From NCBI GenBank assembly GCA_028876495.1, contig JAGWRO010000023.1, forward strand, positions 51,776 to 115,775: a DNA stretch of 64,000 nt. Reading direction: 5' to 3'. Below are positions 6,128-51,838 of the stretch, in pieces. A program made the translations under genes and the position numbers. Source of the DNA: Bacteroidota bacterium. Its GTDB lineage: Bacteria > Bacteroidota > Bacteroidia > Chitinophagales > Chitinophagaceae. Every line of letters starts with the position of its first letter. The stretch's first letter is position 1. The notes beneath the pieces are model-generated. The model ran no database searches, was not told where the DNA came from, and worked only from the letters and a program-made list of their open reading frames with translations.

Positions 6128-8161
6128 ATGGAGTTGCATAAACAAAAATGGCATAGCCGGCTAACCATTTGGGTAGTCGGGCTTTTGCTCTTTGAATTGA
6201 TTTCCGGTTTAATAATATACCTGGGTTCTTTCAGTTTAACTACCCAGGCCCTTGTTGTTATACATACAGCCCTCGGGCTTGTAGTAGTTATACCCTATAT
6301 CATTTATCAAATACGACATTGGTTGTCGTACCGTAAGAACCACCTTACTCAGCATAAACTGATAGGTTATATTGCAATGGGTACTGCGGCCGTAGCTGCT
6401 ATAACCGGTCTTCTGTTAACCTACGAAGCTGTATTCCAAACCCGTATAAATTATTTATGGGATCAGATCCATATTGTTGCAACATTTGCCTTTTTGTTAT
6501 CAATAGTACCTCATATAGGGTTATTAATTATCCGCGATTATAAAGCCAATAAGGAGAAGAAAACTCTTTCACTCATAAAAGCTGAAAGAACATTTGGATA
6601 CCGTGTTTTTTTTGTGCTTACCATATTAATAGCTTTCGTGGCTCTTTTCGTTTATGCTTATAATCCGATTCATTTTAATAATAAATTTCCGGCTAATTAC
6701 CAGTTTATGTATGGTAAGAATAAGCCATTTGAGCCGAGCCTTGCCACCACCATAAACGGGCATGCTATCGATGCCCGGCTTTTGGGTAATTCAAAATCCT
6801 GTATGAGTAGTGGTTGTCATACCAATATAGGCCATGAATGGGAAGCCAATGCTCATCGCTATTCTGCCATGGATCCGGCTTTTCGTGTAGTTCAGCATGC
6901 TATGGCCGTTGAAAAAGGTCCTGCATCGACACGATATTGCGGAGGTTGCCACGATCCGATTTCTCTTTTATCCGGTTCCAAGAATCTGGATGATACTAAA
7001 CTCACAAATCCGATGGGATTGGATGAAGGAATATCCTGTGTAAGTTGCCATTCTATAACAAAAGTCGATGTAATGGGGAATGCCCAGTACCAGATTACAA
7101 AACGGGTACCCTATATGTATGAAATAGAAAAAGGAAAAGCAGCCAAGTTTTTGAGTGATTTTTTAATTCGCGCTTATCCACAGTACCATGTTGCGAGTTT
7201 TAACAAAACAATTTTAAAGACGCCGGAATTCTGTGGTTCATGTCATAAACAATTTATTGATAAACAAGTAAACGGTGTAGGAACGGTACAGTTGCAGAAT
7301 CAATATGACAGTTGGCGAAAAAGTCACTGGAATCATCCTGGGGTGGCTACGAAATCGATTGAGTGCCGCGAATGCCATATGCCGCTGGATTCTTCATTTG
7401 ATCCGGCTAACGGAGATCCGTCGGATTATAACAGAACACCCAATGATAATATGCACCGAAGCCACCGATTCCTTGGTGGCAATCAGTTCATGCCAACCTT
7501 ATTGAAACTTCCGGGTGGTAAAAAACAAGTAGAATTAGTGGAAAAATGGCTGAAGGGAGAAATACAGATTCCGGAAATTAAAAATAAATGGCATAATGGT
7601 GCGGTTCTTCCTATCCAGGTAGAAACTCCTGACACTATTAGTGCCGGACAAGGAGTAGGGATAGATGTGACTGTCACAAACAATAAATCCGGGCATCACT
7701 TTCCTACTGGTCCTCTCGATTTGATACAAGCTTGGATTGAGGTAACCGTAAAAGACAGTTATGGTAATATAGTTTATTCTTCCGGTGTTCTGGATCAGCA
7801 TCACTTCATTCCGCCAGGATCAGTTATCTATCGTGCTCAGCCCGTTGATCAGTTTGGGAGCGATGTAGACAAACATAATTTGTGGAACCTGGTTGGTATA
7901 AAGTTCAGCCGGGCGCTTTACCCCGGATTCAGTGATCAGTTAAAATATAATTTTATTTATAAACCGGGGATACAAGGTAATACTCATACTAACGATACGC
8001 TGTATGTTAATGCTAAATTGTGTTATAGAAAATTCAACCAGTTTGTACTTAACACTTTTTTTTCTGACAATGGCAAAATTGATATCACTGCTCCGGTTAC
8101 TGTTTTATCCAGTGATTCTAAGAAGATAATTGTCAAAAGATCAAACCACACCCATTCGTAA
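6128..8161 (+). CDS. Membrane-anchored multiheme cytochrome c with N-terminal b561-like TM region
   Basis: Four hydrophobic N-terminal segments, then heme motifs CMSSGCH (CX4CH), CGGCH, CVSCH, CGSCH, CRECH. Confidence 0.88.
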   Translation: MELHKQKWHSRLTIWVVGLLLFELISGLIIYLGSFSLTTQALVVIHTALGLVVVIPYIIYQIRHWLSYRKNHLTQHKLIGYIAMGTAAVAAITGLLLTYEAVFQTRINYLWDQIHIVATFAFLLSIVPHIGLLIIRDYKANKEKKTLSLIKAERTFGYRVFFVLTILIAFVALFVYAYNPIHFNNKFPANYQFMYGKNKPFEPSLATTINGHAIDARLLGNSKSCMSSGCHTNIGHEWEANAHRYSAMDPAFRVVQHAMAVEKGPASTRYCGGCHDPISLLSGSKNLDDTKLTNPMGLDEGISCVSCHSITKVDVMGNAQYQITKRVPYMYEIEKGKAAKFLSDFLIRAYPQYHVASFNKTILKTPEFCGSCHKQFIDKQVNGVGTVQLQNQYDSWRKSHWNHPGVATKSIECRECHMPLDSSFDPANGDPSDYNRTPNDNMHRSHRFLGGNQFMPTLLKLPGGKKQVELVEKWLKGEIQIPEIKNKWHNGAVLPIQVETPDTISAGQGVGIDVTVTNNKSGHHFPTGPLDLIQAWIEVTVKDSYGNIVYSSGVLDQHHFIPPGSVIYRAQPVDQFGSDVDKHNLWNLVGIKFSRALYPGFSDQLKYNFIYKPGIQGNTHTNDTLYVNAKLCYRKFNQFVLNTFFSDNGKIDITAPVTVLSSDSKKIIVKRSNHTHS

Positions 8162-8166
8162 TACTT

Positions 8167-9987
8167 ATGTCTGTATCCAGAAGAAAACGGTCCATCTTTG
8201 TAACAAGCCTTATAGCAACTGTATTTGCATTGGTATTAGCTCTCTTTTTTTTCAGGAAGCAAAAGGTAAACCTTTATAGTCCCGGAGAAACGGTGAAAGG
8301 CGTTACGGCGGAACTATATAAGCCGGTTCCGAAGAATCATCCGGATGTAGTCTTTACGGATATTACAAAGAGAGCCGGTATCAATTTCACACACTTCTAT
8401 GGAAAACGTAGCACTCAATTACCTGAAGATATGGGATCCGGTGCAGCATGGATTGATTATGACCAGGACGGCTTTGATGACTTATTAGTGGTGAATGAAG
8501 CAGGTCCTTTGACGATGACTCCGGAGGAAGTTAAAAAATCCCCTGCCTATACCAGGCTTTATCATAACAATGGTAACGGAACATTTACAGATGTAACCAC
8601 ACAGTCAGGAATAAACTTTCATGGTTGCGGAATGGGAGTAGCGGTTGGAGATGTTGATAATGATGGTTATCCCGATATTTTTATTAGCGCTTATGGTAAA
8701 AATGTATATTATCATAATAACGGAAATGGCACTTTTGCAGATGAAACCAGTAAAGCCGGATTTGGAGGAAAGGAAGGCTTTTGGACGGGCGCCAGCTGGG
8801 CCGATTATGACAGAGACGGCTTTTTGGATTTGTATGTTTGTGGTTATGTAAAGTACAGTCAATTGGATAAACAGCCAGTATCAACCAGGGATAATAATGA
8901 AGAACCAGCCGGTATTAATCCTTTGTCTTTTCCTCCGCAACGTAACTTATTATATCATAACAACAGAAATGGAACTTTCACAGAAGTAGCCATTCCTGCA
9001 GGAGTTGCCGATCCTAAAGGAAAGAGTCTTTCTGCATCCTGGTGTGATTTTAATAATGATGGTTGGCCTGATTTGTATGTCGCTAATGATGTGTCTGATA
9101 ATGTGCTGTATCTAAATAACGGGGATGGAACATTTAATGAAATTAGTCACCTGGCACACGTGGCTGATTATCGTGGTGCCATGGGTCTTGCTGTCGGAGA
9201 TTGGGACAATGACGGAGATATGGATTTATTTGTAACCCATTGGCTTGCCGAAGAAAATGGTTTTTATATTAATAAGCTTAATACAATAGGTAAAATACCG
9301 GGTACACTACATGCCCTTCAATTTCAGGATGAGGCAGAAAAATATGGCCTTGGCCAGGTTTCATTAGATGATGTGGCATGGGGCACTTCATTTTTTGATT
9401 ATGACAATGATACCCGCCTTGATTTATTGGTGATTAACGGTAGTACCAACCAGCAAGAAGATCATCCAGAATATTTAGTTCCAATGAAAGACCGTCTCTT
9501 TTGGAATGAAGGGCCTGAAAAAGGGTTTGCCGAAGTAACACCAGTTAGTGGTGAAGCATTATCCTATGAAAATGTAGGCAGGGGAGCAGCGTTTGGAGAT
9601 TATGATAATGACGGGGATGTTGATGTGTTTATAGTAAATAATTGTGGCGAGGGGGTGCTATTGAGAAATGACGGCGGGAATAAAAATAACTGGTTGGAAT
9701 TAAAATTGGTGGGTACCAAAAGTAATCGGTCGGCGATCGGGGCCAGAATAAGGATAGTAAGTGGCAAAGTATCTCAAATTCGCGAAGTAAATAATCAGAG
9801 TTCATACTTATCACAAAATAGTCTGACGCAACATTTTGGTTTAGCAAAATATACGAAAGTAGATACGCTTAAAATTCAGTGGCCGAGCGGTCTTAATCAG
9901 CAATTTCTGAATATTCCGATAAATGAACGTATAGAAATAACCGAAGGAGTAAATAGGATTAAAAATTTAAAGAATCTTCATAATTGA
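8167..9987 (+). CDS. FG-GAP/VCBS repeat protein with C-terminal ASPIC/UnbV domain (CRTAC1-like)
   Basis: Repeated DxDxDG-type loops (DYDQDGFDD, DVDNDGYPD, DYDRDGFLD, DFNNDGWPD, DWDNDGDMD, DYDNDGDVD) and a C-terminal GARIRIVSGKVSQIREVNNQSSYLSQNSLTQHFGL segment typical of ASPIC/UnbV. Confidence 0.92.
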   Translation: MSVSRRKRSIFVTSLIATVFALVLALFFFRKQKVNLYSPGETVKGVTAELYKPVPKNHPDVVFTDITKRAGINFTHFYGKRSTQLPEDMGSGAAWIDYDQDGFDDLLVVNEAGPLTMTPEEVKKSPAYTRLYHNNGNGTFTDVTTQSGINFHGCGMGVAVGDVDNDGYPDIFISAYGKNVYYHNNGNGTFADETSKAGFGGKEGFWTGASWADYDRDGFLDLYVCGYVKYSQLDKQPVSTRDNNEEPAGINPLSFPPQRNLLYHNNRNGTFTEVAIPAGVADPKGKSLSASWCDFNNDGWPDLYVANDVSDNVLYLNNGDGTFNEISHLAHVADYRGAMGLAVGDWDNDGDMDLFVTHWLAEENGFYINKLNTIGKIPGTLHALQFQDEAEKYGLGQVSLDDVAWGTSFFDYDNDTRLDLLVINGSTNQQEDHPEYLVPMKDRLFWNEGPEKGFAEVTPVSGEALSYENVGRGAAFGDYDNDGDVDVFIVNNCGEGVLLRNDGGNKNNWLELKLVGTKSNRSAIGARIRIVSGKVSQIREVNNQSSYLSQNSLTQHFGLAKYTKVDTLKIQWPSGLNQQFLNIPINERIEITEGVNRIKNLKNLHN

Positions 9988-9996
9988 TGAGACCTT

Positions 9997-10869
9997 ATGA
10001 TACATAAAAAATTTATTTTTATAGTAGTTATCTTCCTCCTCATTGCATTTGCGGGCATCACAATAGTTAAGTATTTGGGACATTCTGATCATAGTGGCTC
10101 TGTAAATGAAGTTGTAAAATCCGATTCAATACAAACTTTCTGGTCTTATTACAATCGTGCCACCGAATACCGGTTGCAGGGTAAAGAAGACTCATCTATT
10201 ATAGATTATCAGGAAGCCCTCAAATTGAATCCGGCTCATGAAGATGCGCTGTATTATATTGGAAATATGTATATGAAGTTGGATAAATTTGATCAGGCTC
10301 AAAACAGATGGGAAAAATTAATTAAGCTGAATCCGCAAAGTGAACGGGCTTATAATCAATTAGGCAATCTTTATTTTTGTATGAAGCATCCGGATTATTT
10401 TCATCCGGAGAAGTCGAAGTGGTATTTCAAACGTGCCGCCGACTTAAACAAAGAAACATTAAATCCAAATTTACGACTGGGTGAAATTGCTTTGTTCCAG
10501 GATAGTACAAATGAGGCATTTGATATTTTCAATAAACTATCACTGATGGATCAAAAAAACGCGGAAATTTTTTTTATAGTCGGTTATCTCAATTGGAAAT
10601 CAGGGAAGGAGCAAGATGCCACCAAAGATTTAGAGCGGACTTTTGAACAGGGAATAACGACTATTTTTATTAATGAACAGGGGGGTACAGCTATATCGGC
10701 TAAAAACGCATCAATCGGTAAAAACAAGGAATGTGATCTTTTTATGGATTGGTTAACCAGAAATCTAACGGTACCTAAGAAATATGATATCAGAGTTGAA
10801 ATGCCTAAAGTGTACAAAAAATTTGATGAATATTTAATGAAGATGCGTGAGCAATTAAATCATGATTGA
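9997..10869 (+). CDS. Membrane-anchored tetratricopeptide repeat protein
   Basis: N-terminal TM segment followed by TPR-like units (IIDYQEALKLNPAHEDALYYIGNMYMKLDKFDQAQNRWEKLIKLNPQSERAYNQLGNLY). Confidence 0.85.
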   Translation: MIHKKFIFIVVIFLLIAFAGITIVKYLGHSDHSGSVNEVVKSDSIQTFWSYYNRATEYRLQGKEDSSIIDYQEALKLNPAHEDALYYIGNMYMKLDKFDQAQNRWEKLIKLNPQSERAYNQLGNLYFCMKHPDYFHPEKSKWYFKRAADLNKETLNPNLRLGEIALFQDSTNEAFDIFNKLSLMDQKNAEIFFIVGYLNWKSGKEQDATKDLERTFEQGITTIFINEQGGTAISAKNASIGKNKECDLFMDWLTRNLTVPKKYDIRVEMPKVYKKFDEYLMKMREQLNHD

Positions 10870-10996: not shown

Positions 10997-12097
10997 ATGA
11001 AGAAATTTATTTTGATTCTTTCTGCGATTTTATTTTTATATTTTCATACCAAAGCCCAGGATTCAACTTATGTTATTAATGGAAATCTTGAGAAAATAAA
11101 AAGCGGAACGATCTTTCTGAATATTTATAAACAAGGCGTCACCTTTAAAGATTCTGCAATCATTAAAGAAGGTAAATTTAAATTCACCGGTTTTGTTTCT
11201 TCACCCTATTTTGCTTCGCTCACCATGCCCGAAAGGCACAACGATTATTTTACTTTTTATGTAGAACCTACTTCCATGCAGATTCTTGGGCGCGGAGATT
11301 CATTAAAATTATTAAGCGTAAAAGGTTCAGTAGTGAATTCCGATGATAAATTATTAAAGGAAAGAATGAGGTTCGTTACTAAATGGGAAGCAGCAGACAG
11401 CAAATTGTATGAACAGGCTTATAAAGATAAAAACCGCAAAGTAATGGACAGCCTCGACCAGGTTGACTTTGCCATTTTAGCCGCAAAAAGAAAAATCGTT
11501 TCCTCTTATGTAAAAGAAAATCCAAAGTCAATGCGCGGCGCTATGGCTATCCTCGAAAATTATTCTTATTATGCCGATGCAAGGGAGGTAGCACCTTTGT
11601 ATCACGAATTGGATCCTTCTTTACAAAATTCTTTAAAAGGTAAAGAGATCAAAAAAATGTTGGATACTTACGAAAAAGTAGCCATAGGAAAACCGGCTCC
11701 TGATTTTACGCAAGACACACCTGATAGCACGCAACTCAGTTTGTCTTCTTTAAAAGGTAAATATGTTTTGATTGATTTTTGGGCAAGTTGGTGCGGTCCT
11801 TGTCGTCGCGAGAACCCCAATGTGGTGGCTGCTTACAACAAATTTAAAGATAAAGGATTTACTATTCTGGGTGTTTCTTACGACACCAAAAAAGATCGTT
11901 GGGTGAAAGCCATTGCTGACGATCATCTTGACTGGAACCAGGTTTCTGATTTGAAGGGTTGGCAAAATTCAACCTCTGATGAATATGGTATAAAAGCAAT
12001 TCCTTCCAATGTTTTGGTTGATACAAACGGGGTAATCATCGCCAAAAATATTTTTGGTGATAAGCTTACAGAAAAGCTAAATGAAGTTTTAAACTAA
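10997..12097 (+). CDS. TlpA family disulfide reductase with N-terminal DUF4369-like domain
   Basis: Signal peptide; C-terminal thioredoxin fold with VLIDFWASWCGPCRRENPNVV. Confidence 0.9.
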   Translation: MKKFILILSAILFLYFHTKAQDSTYVINGNLEKIKSGTIFLNIYKQGVTFKDSAIIKEGKFKFTGFVSSPYFASLTMPERHNDYFTFYVEPTSMQILGRGDSLKLLSVKGSVVNSDDKLLKERMRFVTKWEAADSKLYEQAYKDKNRKVMDSLDQVDFAILAAKRKIVSSYVKENPKSMRGAMAILENYSYYADAREVAPLYHELDPSLQNSLKGKEIKKMLDTYEKVAIGKPAPDFTQDTPDSTQLSLSSLKGKYVLIDFWASWCGPCRRENPNVVAAYNKFKDKGFTILGVSYDTKKDRWVKAIADDHLDWNQVSDLKGWQNSTSDEYGIKAIPSNVLVDTNGVIIAKNIFGDKLTEKLNEVLN

Positions 12098-21458: not shown

Positions 21459-24400
21459 ATGAAAAATCACGTTCGTATTTATGCGCTGCTTCTTGCTGCT
21501 TCTGTTTTTTCTCTTTACAGTTGTAGTAAGCGCTCCGGATCTCCCAAATTATTAGTGTTTACCAAAACTACAGGCTACCATCATGCATCTATTGCTGATG
21601 GAGTACAAGCTATTTTTAAACTGGGGCAGGAAAATGGTTTTGAAGTAGATACTACTTCCAATTCTGCCATGTTTAATGAAGACACGCTGAAGCAGTACGC
21701 CGCTGTTGTGTTTTTAAGTACCACAGATAACACCGATGTACTTATGAACAATTATGAAGAAAATGCTTTCCAACGATATATAGAAGCCGGTGGTGGCTTT
21801 GTGGGAGTGCATGCTGCTACCGATGCGGGTTATCATTGGGGCTGGTACCAGAGGTTGGTAGGCGCCACTTTTAATGGCCATCCTGAAATACAAACAGCTA
21901 CGCTGCATGTGGTTGATAAAGATAATATTTCTACCAAAGGATTGCCAGACCCTTGGATAAGAAAAGACGAATGGTACAATTTTAAGAACCTGGACAGCGG
22001 TTTGCATGTGTTGCTCACCATAGATGAGAAGAGTTATAAAGGTGGTACCAATGGAGATAACCACCCGATGGCGTGGTATCATGATTTTGATGGAGGAAGA
22101 GCCTGGTATACAGAACTTGGACACACATCAGAATCTTACACCGAACCCAATTTTTTAAAACATTTGCTTGGTGGAATTAAATATGCTATGGGTGATAATA
22201 AAGAATTGGATTATGCAAAAGTGAAAACGCCGCCAATACCTGCGGAAGATCGATTTACTAAAACTCAGTTGGTGCAGGGAACATTTTTTGAACCTACTGA
22301 AATGACCATTCTTCCTAACCTGGATGTTTTGGTTGCACAACGGCGTGGCGAAATTATGATGTACAACCACGAAACTAAAAAAGTAAAACAAGTTGGATTT
22401 TTAGATGTTTATTGGCATACACTGCATACACCGGGTGTTAATGCTGAAGAAGGTGTTTTGGGTCTTAAGCAAGATCCTGATTTTGCACACAACCATTATG
22501 TGTATATTTATTACAGCCCGATTGATACTTCTGTGAATCGCTTGTCACGCTTTACTTTTACTAATGATTCAATAGACCCGAAATCAGAAAAAATAATACT
22601 CCAGTTCTATGAGCAAAGAGAGATCTGTTGTCACACCGGAGGCTCCATTGCTTTTGGTAAAGACCGCCAGTTGTTTTTATCAACAGGGGATAACACTACT
22701 CCTTTTGACGAACCGGGTAAAGGTTTTAACACGCATGGTTTTGCGCCTTTGGATGATCGTCCCGGTTATGATCATTATGATGATCGCCGTAGTGCAGGGA
22801 ATACCAACGACTTGCGAGGAAAAATTCTTCGTATAACAATGAATTTAGATGGAACTTATAGTATTCCTGATGGTAACCTTTTTCCAAAAGGAGAGGACAG
22901 TACCCGCCCGGAAATTTATGTAATGGGCGATCGCAATCCTTATCGTATTGCAGTAGACCAGAAAAACAATTATTTATATTGGGGTGAAGTAGGGCCGGAT
23001 GCCAATAACGACAGCATGGCCACCCGCGGCCCGCGTGGATATGACGAATTTAACCAGGCCAGAAAAGCCGGTTTTTTTGGATGGCCTTTCTTTATTGCCA
23101 ACAATATTCCTTACCGCCAGTATGATTATGCTACCGGAAAATCGGGTGACTTGTTTGATCCACTGCGACCTGTGAACAATTCAAGAAATAATACCGGCAA
23201 AAAGATTTTGCCTCCTGCAAACCCGGCATATATCTGGTATCCTTATGCAGAGTCAACAGATTTTCCGCAGGTAGGAAGCGGAGGCCGTTGTGCTATGGGA
23301 GGCCCGGTATATTATACCGATATGTATCCTGATTCAACAAGATATCCTGACTATTATAATGGCAAATTATTTATTTATGAATGGATACGCGGCTGGATCA
23401 AAGTAGTAACCATGAAACCCAACGGCGATTTTGATAACATGGAACCCTTCATGTTGAATACCAAATTTAATAATCCAAGCGATATGGAAATTGGCCCTGA
23501 TGGCAGGTTGTATGTGTTGGAATATGGAAGCGGTTGGTTTTCCAAAAACGCAGATGCAGGATTGGCAAGAATAGATTTTAATGGTGGCAACAGGCCGCCT
23601 GAGATTCGTTCTGTTCACGTTGATAAAACATCAGGAGATCTTCCTTTGCAAATAACAGCAACTGTAGACGCAAAAGATCCTGACAATGACCCGGTTTCCT
23701 ATATCTGGCATTTAGGCAACGGAATACAAAAAGAAACCACAGAACCACGGTTACAATATACTCTTACCAAAGTAGGGGATTACCCTGTTTCGGTAGAAGT
23801 TATGGATGATAAAAAAGCTTCTTCAACCAGCAACGCAGTTGATGTGTACGCAGGTAATGCCGCGCCAACCGTTCAGATTAATATCGAAGGAAACAAAACC
23901 TTTTATTTCCCGGGCAAGCCAGTAAAGTATAATGTAAAAATTGAAGATGCAGATGATACCTCAGCGAAGGATTTGAACAATCTTGTGGTATCGGCTAATT
24001 ATTCAGACCAGAGAGATAAGGCCGGAACAACCCAGGGTGACCAGGCATTGGCACAACAGATGGTTGGACAAAACCTGATGCTTTCACTGGATTGTAAAGG
24101 CTGTCATAAAGTAGATACCAAATCAGTAGGCCCGGCATTTATACAGGTATCCCAGCGCTATCAAAAGAATCCTCAGGCAACAGCAACCCTGGCAGAAAAA
24201 ATTATCAGCGGAGGAAGCGGTAATTGGGGCAAAGTACCAATGGCAGCGCATCCTAATCTGAAAGAGAGCGACGCGAAGGAAATTGTATCATGGATATTAT
24301 CGCTGGCAAATGAAAATAAAAAAGTAAAATCGTTACCCGCAAGCGGATCGGTAGATGCTACGATGAACAAGCCTGTAAAACCGGAGGGTTTACTTAATCT

Positions 24401-24893
24401 TTATGCTGCCTACACTGATAAAGGAGGTACTGGCATTAAACCACTCATGGGTAGCAGTTCTGTTTCTTTAAGTAACAGTACAATGACTTTTGACGGAGTT
24501 ACCAAAATGGACGGATTCAGTAAAGTAACTTTTGGAGGAAGGACCTTTTTAATAATACCACAAAACACAGGTTGGTTCAGGATAGATAGTATAGATCTTA
24601 CCGGCATCACTCATGCGTCTTTAGGTATGGGCTGGCAAAAACCGCCGGTGGGTGCTTATACTTTTGAGGTGCATCTGGATTCTCCACAGGGAGAAAAGAT
24701 CGGAGAATTTTCTTTTGCAGGAGTAAGCGGAACAGCTTCGCCAAATGCGAAACCGCAATTTGCCACACTTACTTCTCAAATAACGCCTGTTAGTGATGGA
24801 AGCATGCATAATGTGTACATTGTAAGTAAACCAAAAGACCCAACTGTTAGTGGCACAGCGGCGCTGGCTTCCTTACAGTTCTTTTTAAAATAA
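21459..24893 (+). CDS. ThuA domain / PQQ-dependent sugar dehydrogenase-like / PKD / cytochrome c fusion with C-terminal carbohydrate-binding-like domain
   Basis: LLVFTKTTGYHHASI (ThuA), GGSIAFGKDRQLFLSTGDNT...YDEFNQARKAGFFGWPFF (glucose/sorbosone dehydrogenase-like), PKD-like region, LDCKGCHKVDTKSVGPAF (CxxCH), all in one 1144-aa frame. Confidence 0.9.
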   Translation: MKNHVRIYALLLAASVFSLYSCSKRSGSPKLLVFTKTTGYHHASIADGVQAIFKLGQENGFEVDTTSNSAMFNEDTLKQYAAVVFLSTTDNTDVLMNNYEENAFQRYIEAGGGFVGVHAATDAGYHWGWYQRLVGATFNGHPEIQTATLHVVDKDNISTKGLPDPWIRKDEWYNFKNLDSGLHVLLTIDEKSYKGGTNGDNHPMAWYHDFDGGRAWYTELGHTSESYTEPNFLKHLLGGIKYAMGDNKELDYAKVKTPPIPAEDRFTKTQLVQGTFFEPTEMTILPNLDVLVAQRRGEIMMYNHETKKVKQVGFLDVYWHTLHTPGVNAEEGVLGLKQDPDFAHNHYVYIYYSPIDTSVNRLSRFTFTNDSIDPKSEKIILQFYEQREICCHTGGSIAFGKDRQLFLSTGDNTTPFDEPGKGFNTHGFAPLDDRPGYDHYDDRRSAGNTNDLRGKILRITMNLDGTYSIPDGNLFPKGEDSTRPEIYVMGDRNPYRIAVDQKNNYLYWGEVGPDANNDSMATRGPRGYDEFNQARKAGFFGWPFFIANNIPYRQYDYATGKSGDLFDPLRPVNNSRNNTGKKILPPANPAYIWYPYAESTDFPQVGSGGRCAMGGPVYYTDMYPDSTRYPDYYNGKLFIYEWIRGWIKVVTMKPNGDFDNMEPFMLNTKFNNPSDMEIGPDGRLYVLEYGSGWFSKNADAGLARIDFNGGNRPPEIRSVHVDKTSGDLPLQITATVDAKDPDNDPVSYIWHLGNGIQKETTEPRLQYTLTKVGDYPVSVEVMDDKKASSTSNAVDVYAGNAAPTVQINIEGNKTFYFPGKPVKYNVKIEDADDTSAKDLNNLVVSANYSDQRDKAGTTQGDQALAQQMVGQNLMLSLDCKGCHKVDTKSVGPAFIQVSQRYQKNPQATATLAEKIISGGSGNWGKVPMAAHPNLKESDAKEIVSWILSLANENKKVKSLPASGSVDATMNKPVKPEGLLNLYAAYTDKGGTGIKPLMGSSSVSLSNSTMTFDGVTKMDGFSKVTFGGRTFLIIPQNTGWFRIDSIDLTGITHASLGMGWQKPPVGAYTFEVHLDSPQGEKIGEFSFAGVSGTASPNAKPQFATLTSQITPVSDGSMHNVYIVSKPKDPTVSGTAALASLQFFLK

Positions 24894-48945: not shown

Positions 48946-49857
48946 TCAAAACCCCCAGCTTTTCATGATTTTTAAATCATCAGCAATCGCTTGTAAAGGG
49001 GTTTGAGCCTGGTAAGATTCCTGCTCTATTATAAAATATTTTGTTCCTGTTTTACGGGCGTAATCAACAATTTGTTTCACCGGTATCACCCCTTTGGTGA
49101 GGACACAACTTTCATAAATATTTCCATTTTCATCGGGAGTGTCTCTTTTTACTTCGTCTTTCACATGCATCAATAAAAATCTTCCGGGATATCTTTTTAA
49201 GAAATCCATTGCTCTGCCACCGGGCTCGTACATATTGCCAATATCCATTTGTTGTGCTACCAGGCTTTTATCGGTAGATTGAAGAATCAGATCGTATATC
49301 AGTGTTCCATCGAGGCTGTGGTTAAATTCATAGCTTTCGTTGTGAAAGGCAAAATGTATTCCTGCTTTTCTGCAGAGTTCACCTGTTTTATTAAACATAT
49401 CCATGTAATGCCTGAAGTCGTTCATGTTTTGACAAAGGCTTTCATCCACGCCCGGACTTATTACATATTTCATCCCGATTGCTGCTGCGTCATCAATCGT
49501 TTGCTTCCACTCGTCGGTAAAATCATTGGTACTGTTATTCCATTGTTTGGAGCCCAAAAAGTCGTGACCGCTTTCCATTTTTAAACCATTATCATTCAAC
49601 AGTTTTTTAAAATCCGCAATAGAATATCCATAAAATTTCTTCCCATAATAACCGGCGTGTTCTACGTATTTATATCCGGTTTGCGCCACTTTTTTAAGTG
49701 TTCCGGCCGGATCTTTTTTCATATCGTCTCTTACGCTGTAAAGTTGCACTCCAAGTATATCCTGCGGCGTTTTGGCTTTAAGAACGGAAGGAAGAAATGA
49801 AATGCCGGCAATAGTGAGGCTGCTGTTTTTTACGAATGTGCGGCGTGAAATATTCAT
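48946..49857 (-). CDS. Sugar phosphate isomerase/epimerase (TIM barrel), exported; paralogue of 1663..2583
   Basis: MNISRRTFVKNSSLTIAGISFLPSVLKA; LGVQLYSVRDDMKKDPAGTLKKVAQTGYKYVEHAGYYGKKFYGYS. Confidence 0.9.
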   Translation of the reverse strand: MNISRRTFVKNSSLTIAGISFLPSVLKAKTPQDILGVQLYSVRDDMKKDPAGTLKKVAQTGYKYVEHAGYYGKKFYGYSIADFKKLLNDNGLKMESGHDFLGSKQWNNSTNDFTDEWKQTIDDAAAIGMKYVISPGVDESLCQNMNDFRHYMDMFNKTGELCRKAGIHFAFHNESYEFNHSLDGTLIYDLILQSTDKSLVAQQMDIGNMYEPGGRAMDFLKRYPGRFLLMHVKDEVKRDTPDENGNIYESCVLTKGVIPVKQIVDYARKTGTKYFIIEQESYQAQTPLQAIADDLKIMKSWGF

Positions 49858-51751: not shown

Positions 51752-51838
51752 ACAACAAATTTTACAATGGAGTAATCAATAAAATTATAATTGAAAAGCA
51801 AGATAAGTTAATTCGCCATTTATACTGAATTTCTCAAC

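Follow-up and report, generated by a model that had tools for sequence, protein, structure and literature searches.

Three adjacent genes in a 64,000-nucleotide stretch of DNA from a Bacteroidota bacterium (Chitinophagales; Chitinophagaceae in the GTDB lineage), hereafter called the window, form a conserved module whose arrangement is found far beyond chance. They encode a membrane-anchored pentaheme cytochrome (gene 1, CYT), a protein with an FG-GAP propeller and an ASPIC/UnbV domain (gene 2, UNB) and a TPR protein (gene 3, TPR). Together they probably represent a respiratory electron-transfer complex that is widespread but has so far gone undescribed. Our main reading, to which we assign a probability of about 0.55, is that CYT, UNB and TPR make up one inner-membrane respiratory complex responsible for quinone-linked electron transfer to a periplasmic partner. 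It draws on the linkage and fusion of the genes, their joint divergence, the heme motifs and the predicted fold of CYT.

The window covers positions 51,776 to 115,775 of the forward strand of contig JAGWRO010000023.1 (assembly GCA_028876495.1), and the coordinates below are positions within it. All three ORFs are located on the plus strand; their positions agree with the tight three-gene set, with gaps of 5 and 9 bp, recorded in the first-pass annotation. The features of the locus are as follows.

6128..8161, + strand: gene 1, CYT, membrane-anchored pentaheme c-type cytochrome, 677 aa (ORF; 91-member alignment; AlphaFold model; best fold match 5ze8)
6158..6658, + strand: predicted membrane domain of CYT, residues 11-177, five helices (model helices; conserved His; weak DUF4405/b561 matches)
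6800..6820, + strand: heme c site 1, CX4CH (CMSSGCH, residues 225-231; Cys225, Cys230 and His231 invariant in 91 sequences)
6938..6952, + strand: heme c site 2, CGGCH (residues 271-275; invariant in 91 sequences)
7037..7051, + strand: heme c site 3, CVSCH (residues 304-308; invariant in 91 sequences)
7232..7246, + strand: heme c site 4, CGSCH (residues 369-373; invariant in 91 sequences)
7364..7378, + strand: heme c site 5, CRECH (residues 413-417; invariant in 91 sequences)
7610..8137, + strand: predicted C-terminal beta-sandwich (Ig-like) of CYT, residues about 495-670 (model strands; fold matches to c552 and CARDB/Ig-like domains)
8167..9987, + strand: gene 2, UNB, membrane-anchored FG-GAP propeller with ASPIC/UnbV, 606 aa (Pfam; motifs; adjacency to CYT)
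9733..9933, + strand: ASPIC/UnbV domain of UNB, residues 523-589 (Pfam PF07593, E 1.1e-19)
9997..10869, + strand: gene 3, TPR, membrane-anchored TPR protein, 290 aa (Pfam TPR models; linkage; family-specific residues)
10144..10641, + strand: TPR repeat region of gene 3, residues about 50-215 (Pfam TPR_1/TPR_2/TPR_11; NCBIfam TPR matches to about residue 215)

Each protein of the window trio begins with a hydrophobic N-terminus, in line with the membrane anchors noted earlier; the TPR protein of some relatives carries a lipobox instead. Scans for promoter and terminator patterns gave no more matches than shuffled sequence. A ResA/TlpA-like thiol-disulfide oxidoreductase with DUF4369 is encoded 127 bp downstream of the trio (10997-12097). 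ResA/TlpA-like proteins can serve cytochrome c maturation. This gene was considered as a fourth member and dropped, since the trio occurs in relatives without it downstream. In the host genome, the cytochrome c assembly family PF01578 is matched twice and ResB not at all. Elsewhere in the window, the ORF at 21459-24893 encodes a predicted secreted protein of 1144 aa with one CKGCH heme-type motif, the only c-heme motif outside CYT in sizeable ORFs of the window. The proteins encoded at 1612-2583 and 48946-49857 resemble each other closely in their N-terminal motifs (LGxQLYSVRDD, preceded by a Tat-like leader) and are probably paralogous and sugar-isomerase-like.

The neighbourhood survey proposed in the first-pass annotation revealed that the co-occurrence of the three families is conserved. 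The scan of named contigs was driven only by two CYT heme-motif patterns and retained the best 80 of 545 confirmed candidates, so distant CYT relatives are under-sampled. Within these best 80, 76 named loci have at least 1 kb of downstream sequence, and in 75 of them the gene immediately after CYT is UNB, whereas the next same-strand gene is UNB-like for only 10 of 380 other genes in the same loci (2.6%). The TPR part, either separate or fused, is present in 60 of the 65 named loci with at least 2.9 kb downstream. The pairwise divergence of CYT correlates with that of UNB (r = 0.81, 78 loci; the highest value among permutations was 0.17), a part of this correlation being due to shared species history. 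When 396 genomes of the same phylum were searched, the CYT relatives found fell into two groups. The first consists of eight relatives of the window length, 51-54% identical to the window protein, and all eight are followed by UNB and TPR. In the second group (about 28% identical, about 900 aa), UNB is directly downstream in six of the 11 loci with room, and in at least two further loci UNB is close by but differently oriented. No conserved neighbour outside the trio emerged when the neighbours in the relatives' loci were clustered in search of a substrate gene; the genomic context thus names no substrate. A role in nitrogen-oxide metabolism, considered because of NapA-, RIC- and Rrf2-like neighbours, was left as weak, since each of them occurs in only four loci.

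The product of gene 3 exceeds the cut-off of several Pfam TPR models, as expected from its earlier assignment to the TPR proteins, and the separate TPR proteins of relatives mostly have a hydrophobic N-terminus or a lipobox. Among the 65 named loci with sufficient downstream sequence, TPR is a separate gene in 28 and is fused to the C-terminus of UNB in 32; it was uncalled in four, and in one (L105) UNB itself is missing. Two of the uncalled loci have TPR-like sequence nearby: in L057 the TPR gene is located one gene further downstream, and in L124 the next protein combines N-terminal TPR-like repeats with a UNB-like remainder. Separate and fused forms have in common conserved columns that are not generic to TPR repeats (Phe48-Trp49, His81, Arg117, Gly123, Asn151, Trp200 and a Gly229 motif). 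By these residues, the two forms are genuine homologues belonging to a specific family and not just any TPR. A FastTree tree built from 83 CYT sequences implies five or more switches between the fused and separate states. In the second CYT group, all four members scanned have CYT itself extended at its end by fused TPR repeats.

Several loci depart from the simple order. In two Planctomycetota loci (L120:5043-6962 and L122:5367-6878), the place of the TPR gene after UNB is taken by genes whose products look like redox proteins, one resembling a flavin/iron-sulfur oxidoreductase and the other a membrane protein of polyferredoxin type. Locus L043 (3060-14721) contains a tandem UNB-TPR-UNB-TPR-CYT-UNB-TPR array around a fused CYT-TPR protein, which suggests that the modules duplicate as a set. 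Two genomes (G003 and G008; L041 and L042) possess both forms of CYT: besides the window-like trio, each also encodes, separately, a CYT-TPR fusion of 906 aa with UNB, TPR and UNB after it.

Among the best 80 of 545 candidates, the records with UNB beside CYT bear twelve NCBI phylum labels, plus KSB1 (L054); most of these records are metagenome-assembled, so individual phylum labels may be wrong. Carriers include Acidobacteriota, Planctomycetota, Gemmatimonadota, Bacteroidota and Verrucomicrobiota, and the module is also present in Rhodothermus genomes (L062, L067). The nearest named CYT relatives within the same set come from Chitinophagaceae and Bacteroidetes assemblies and are 82-83% identical over the full length. 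The host genome has a single copy of the trio. In the host family, CYT was found in one of 249 sampled genomes, the host itself, and in the host genus in four of 20 genomes including the host, several of which are incomplete. Such patchiness indicates loss or transfer. An empty-site comparison with genomes of the same genus indicated a lack of synteny with the window on the upstream side.

The rarity of CYT in the host family means that the gene moves or is lost often, and one could ask whether the three genes are adjacent merely by chance or through shared mobility, with no common function. The near-constant adjacency of UNB set against its background frequency, the repeated fusion of UNB with TPR and the joint divergence all speak against this explanation, as does the conservation of the set across at least twelve phyla with nothing else conserved around it. 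In practice, the linkage data refute it, and we give it almost no weight.

The five heme sites attributed to CYT in the first-pass annotation hold in the alignment of 91 family members. They comprise four CXXCH motifs and one CX4CH motif, and each motif with its histidine is invariant in 91/91 sequences, including the unusual CX4CH at residue 225. Outside the motifs, His243, His354, His446 and His523 are likewise invariant (91/91), and His443 is found in 82/91. These residues provide enough candidate distal histidines for most or all of the c hemes. The invariant His523 is part of a GHxFPTG motif in the C-terminal beta-sandwich.

Five helices were predicted by AlphaFold in the membrane domain of CYT (residues 11-32, 37-68, 75-103, 109-144 and 147-177). 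His46 and His115 are conserved in 91/91 sequences and His64 and His129 in 88/91; according to the model and the alignment, two of these residues are on helix 2 and two on helix 4. They are candidate ligands of two b hemes, and the predicted layout fits one that is common for two b hemes, which would bring the predicted heme load of CYT to seven (two b and five c). The b561-like character ascribed to this domain earlier stands as a weak resemblance, since the Pfam scores for DUF4405 (23.7 bits, cut-off 26.7) and Cytochrom_B561 (20.8, cut-off 23) are both below their cut-offs. Among the homologous membrane domains, 18/45 match DUF4405 and 8/45 match Ni_hydr_CYTB (prokaryotic b561). The odd number of helices, together with the positively charged N-terminus and loops placed inside, suggests from sequence that the c-heme domain would face the periplasm. 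The first-pass annotation had suggested either the periplasm or the cell surface; the five predicted helices lend no support to the cell surface and point instead to an inner-membrane protein whose hemes are periplasmic.

The AlphaFold model of CYT built on the 91-sequence alignment has a pLDDT of 90.3 and a pTM of 0.86; it replaced a run with nine close sequences as the alignment input, which had reached a pLDDT of only 48.5. The sole strong PDB match of the model is the pentaheme cytochrome c552 of Thermochromatium tepidum (5ze8; E 5.9e-12, TM 0.67 on target). A profile search also linked CYT with 5ze8 (E 1.4e-6, covering hemes 1-3), and collinear but sub-threshold stretches cover heme 5 and the histidine of an HxxPTG motif equivalent to His523. 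The NCBIfam ExtKL model (NF040886) is matched by all nine close CYTs, the window CYT scoring 30 bits, below the cut-off of 250. Similarity to several multiheme families is weak, and only the cytochrome c554 model is just over its cut-off (21.5 vs 20.8 bits).

In PMC11976967, ExtKL, Gsu2801 and proteins of cable bacteria are united in a pentaheme (PHC) family that has an Ig-like domain and is structurally homologous to c552, and catalysis at five-coordinate hemes is raised as a possibility. Like c552 (5ze8), ExtKL and Gsu2801 of Geobacter and the sPHC and lPHC of cable bacteria, CYT combines a pentaheme domain with five c-type sites and, after it, an Ig-like domain, and its model has the c552 fold. 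The fold and profile matches to 5ze8 and the matches to ExtKL thus indicate that the domain which CYT carries on its membrane anchor is of the PHC type. The PHC members are reported to be soluble and exported (PMC11976967), whereas the pentaheme domain of CYT is attached to a five-helix membrane domain. The invariant CX4CH at site 1 and the genetic linkage to UNB and TPR are further features of CYT set against these proteins.

This kinship admits a different role for CYT. PHC members, including ExtKL-like proteins, have been grouped as potentially catalytic proteins with pentacoordinated hemes (PMC11976967), and CYT might accordingly be an enzyme rather than a wire: a terminal reductase that uses quinol electrons to reduce a small substrate (e.g., a nitrogen or sulfur oxyanion) at a five-coordinate c heme, with UNB-TPR as an accessory or substrate-handling unit. 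The unusual invariant motif at site 1 would suit such a role; the lack of His443 in nine of 91 sequences could leave one heme without a distal histidine, and CRTAC1 genes also occur beside hydrazine-synthase-like multiheme genes (PMC12758564). However, at least five conserved histidines are available as candidate distal ligands of the five hemes in the window-like clade, and nitrogen or sulfur genes are not regularly linked to the module, the NapA-, RIC- and Rrf2-like neighbours being as sparse as stated above. We consider the reductase role unlikely, with a modest chance of being correct.

ExtKL and c552 have themselves been linked to an archaeal cytochrome nanowire (PMC11976967). The fold kinship with them, the matches of the nine close CYTs to the ExtKL model (with the window CYT below its cut-off) and the lipoprotein-like nature of some separate TPR proteins would be compatible with extracellular electron transfer, in which CYT would feed an outer-membrane or surface conduit and UNB-TPR would link the two membranes. 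No recurring porin or outer-membrane cytochrome was found in the neighbourhoods, and this route is a narrower version of the quinone-linked complex. It appears very improbable.

For the quinone-linked complex, the nearest counterpart in functional design is CbcL, a quinone oxidoreductase with a di-heme b membrane domain and a periplasmic multiheme c domain. In the portions of the descriptions compared (PMC9129911, PMC6295460), the CbcL/MtrH/MtoC proteins are widespread across phyla and, like CYT with its predicted b-type domain, join a b-type membrane domain to a periplasmic multiheme c domain. In CbcL, as described there, a heme-rich N-terminal portion with nine c hemes precedes the membrane domain, which has six helices (mostly so in CbcL/MtrH/MtoC), whereas in CYT five helices come first and five c hemes of the PHC fold follow. 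The reversed domain order, the helix number and the PHC fold place CYT outside the CbcL family. The descriptions compared make no mention of a UNB or TPR partner of CbcL. By analogy, CYT may nevertheless work like CbcL. It would exchange electrons with the quinone pool via the two putative b hemes of the membrane domain, and the electrons would then pass along the five c hemes of the PHC-type periplasmic domain. UNB and TPR, which are one polypeptide in many species, would be the periplasmic partner capping the heme wire, and the UNB-TPR unit would dock the electron acceptor or donor, be it the next carrier or a substrate. Quinol oxidation, as in CbcL, would be the likeliest direction; reverse flow into quinone is possible. 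That the three proteins assemble into one complex is what their linkage suggests.

The earlier description of UNB as a calcium-loop propeller with an ASPIC/UnbV tail is borne out by Pfam, in which FG-GAP_3 (185.4 bits) and UnbV_ASPIC (70.5 bits) exceed their cut-offs. The window protein has seven DxDxDGxxD (Ca-loop-like) motifs, and its relatives mostly have six or seven. The N-terminus is hydrophobic in 67/78 UNB proteins of trio members. Besides the loop residues, His358-Trp359 is kept in 78/78 trio members, and the residues invariant beyond the calcium loops are His358, Trp359, Tyr227, Tyr304 and Tyr547. These residues, together with the status of UNB as the one partner nearly always adjoining CYT, would fit a catalytic propeller that oxidises a periplasmic substrate and passes electrons through CYT to quinone, making the module a periplasmic dehydrogenase. 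However, searches of UNB against Pfam and NCBIfam turned up neither a redox cofactor motif nor a known enzyme family apart from FG-GAP and UnbV, and the open-access literature searched yielded no enzymatic ASPIC/UnbV protein. We regard a catalytic UNB as improbable. The nearest precedent is a CRTAC1 gene adjoining hydrazine-synthase-like multiheme genes (PMC12758564). FG-GAP and UnbV_ASPIC are common to UNB and the CRTAC1/ASPIC-UnbV proteins; UNB differs from them in being membrane anchored, in its position behind a membrane pentaheme cytochrome and, often, in its C-terminal TPR domain, and the hydrazine-synthase-like partners of CRTAC1 are proteins different from CYT.

No description of the trio, or published function for it, was found in the open-access literature searched, which leaves subscription papers and preprints outside; the nearest reports are PMC12758564 and PMC11976967. 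The proposal of an undescribed electron-transfer protein system is thus supported, the trio being conserved across at least twelve phyla and accompanied by gene fusions. The first-pass annotation had missed the kinship to c552 and ExtKL, the fusions involving TPR and the invariance of the membrane histidines. Whether the trio represents an unrecognised class of quinone-linked respiratory complexes (b-type domain, PHC wire, propeller-TPR) in at least twelve phyla, one that gives the ASPIC/UnbV propeller a biochemical role, we judge to be an even proposition.

The range of compounds open to a bacterium for respiration is set by those of its multiheme cytochromes that interact with the quinone pool. 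The carriage of the module by Rhodothermus points to a genus with cultured members. A membrane pentaheme module of this type would fill a gap in what is known of respiration in bacteria common in soil and water, and the FG-GAP/UnbV proteins, abundant but functionally obscure, would gain a concrete, testable role.
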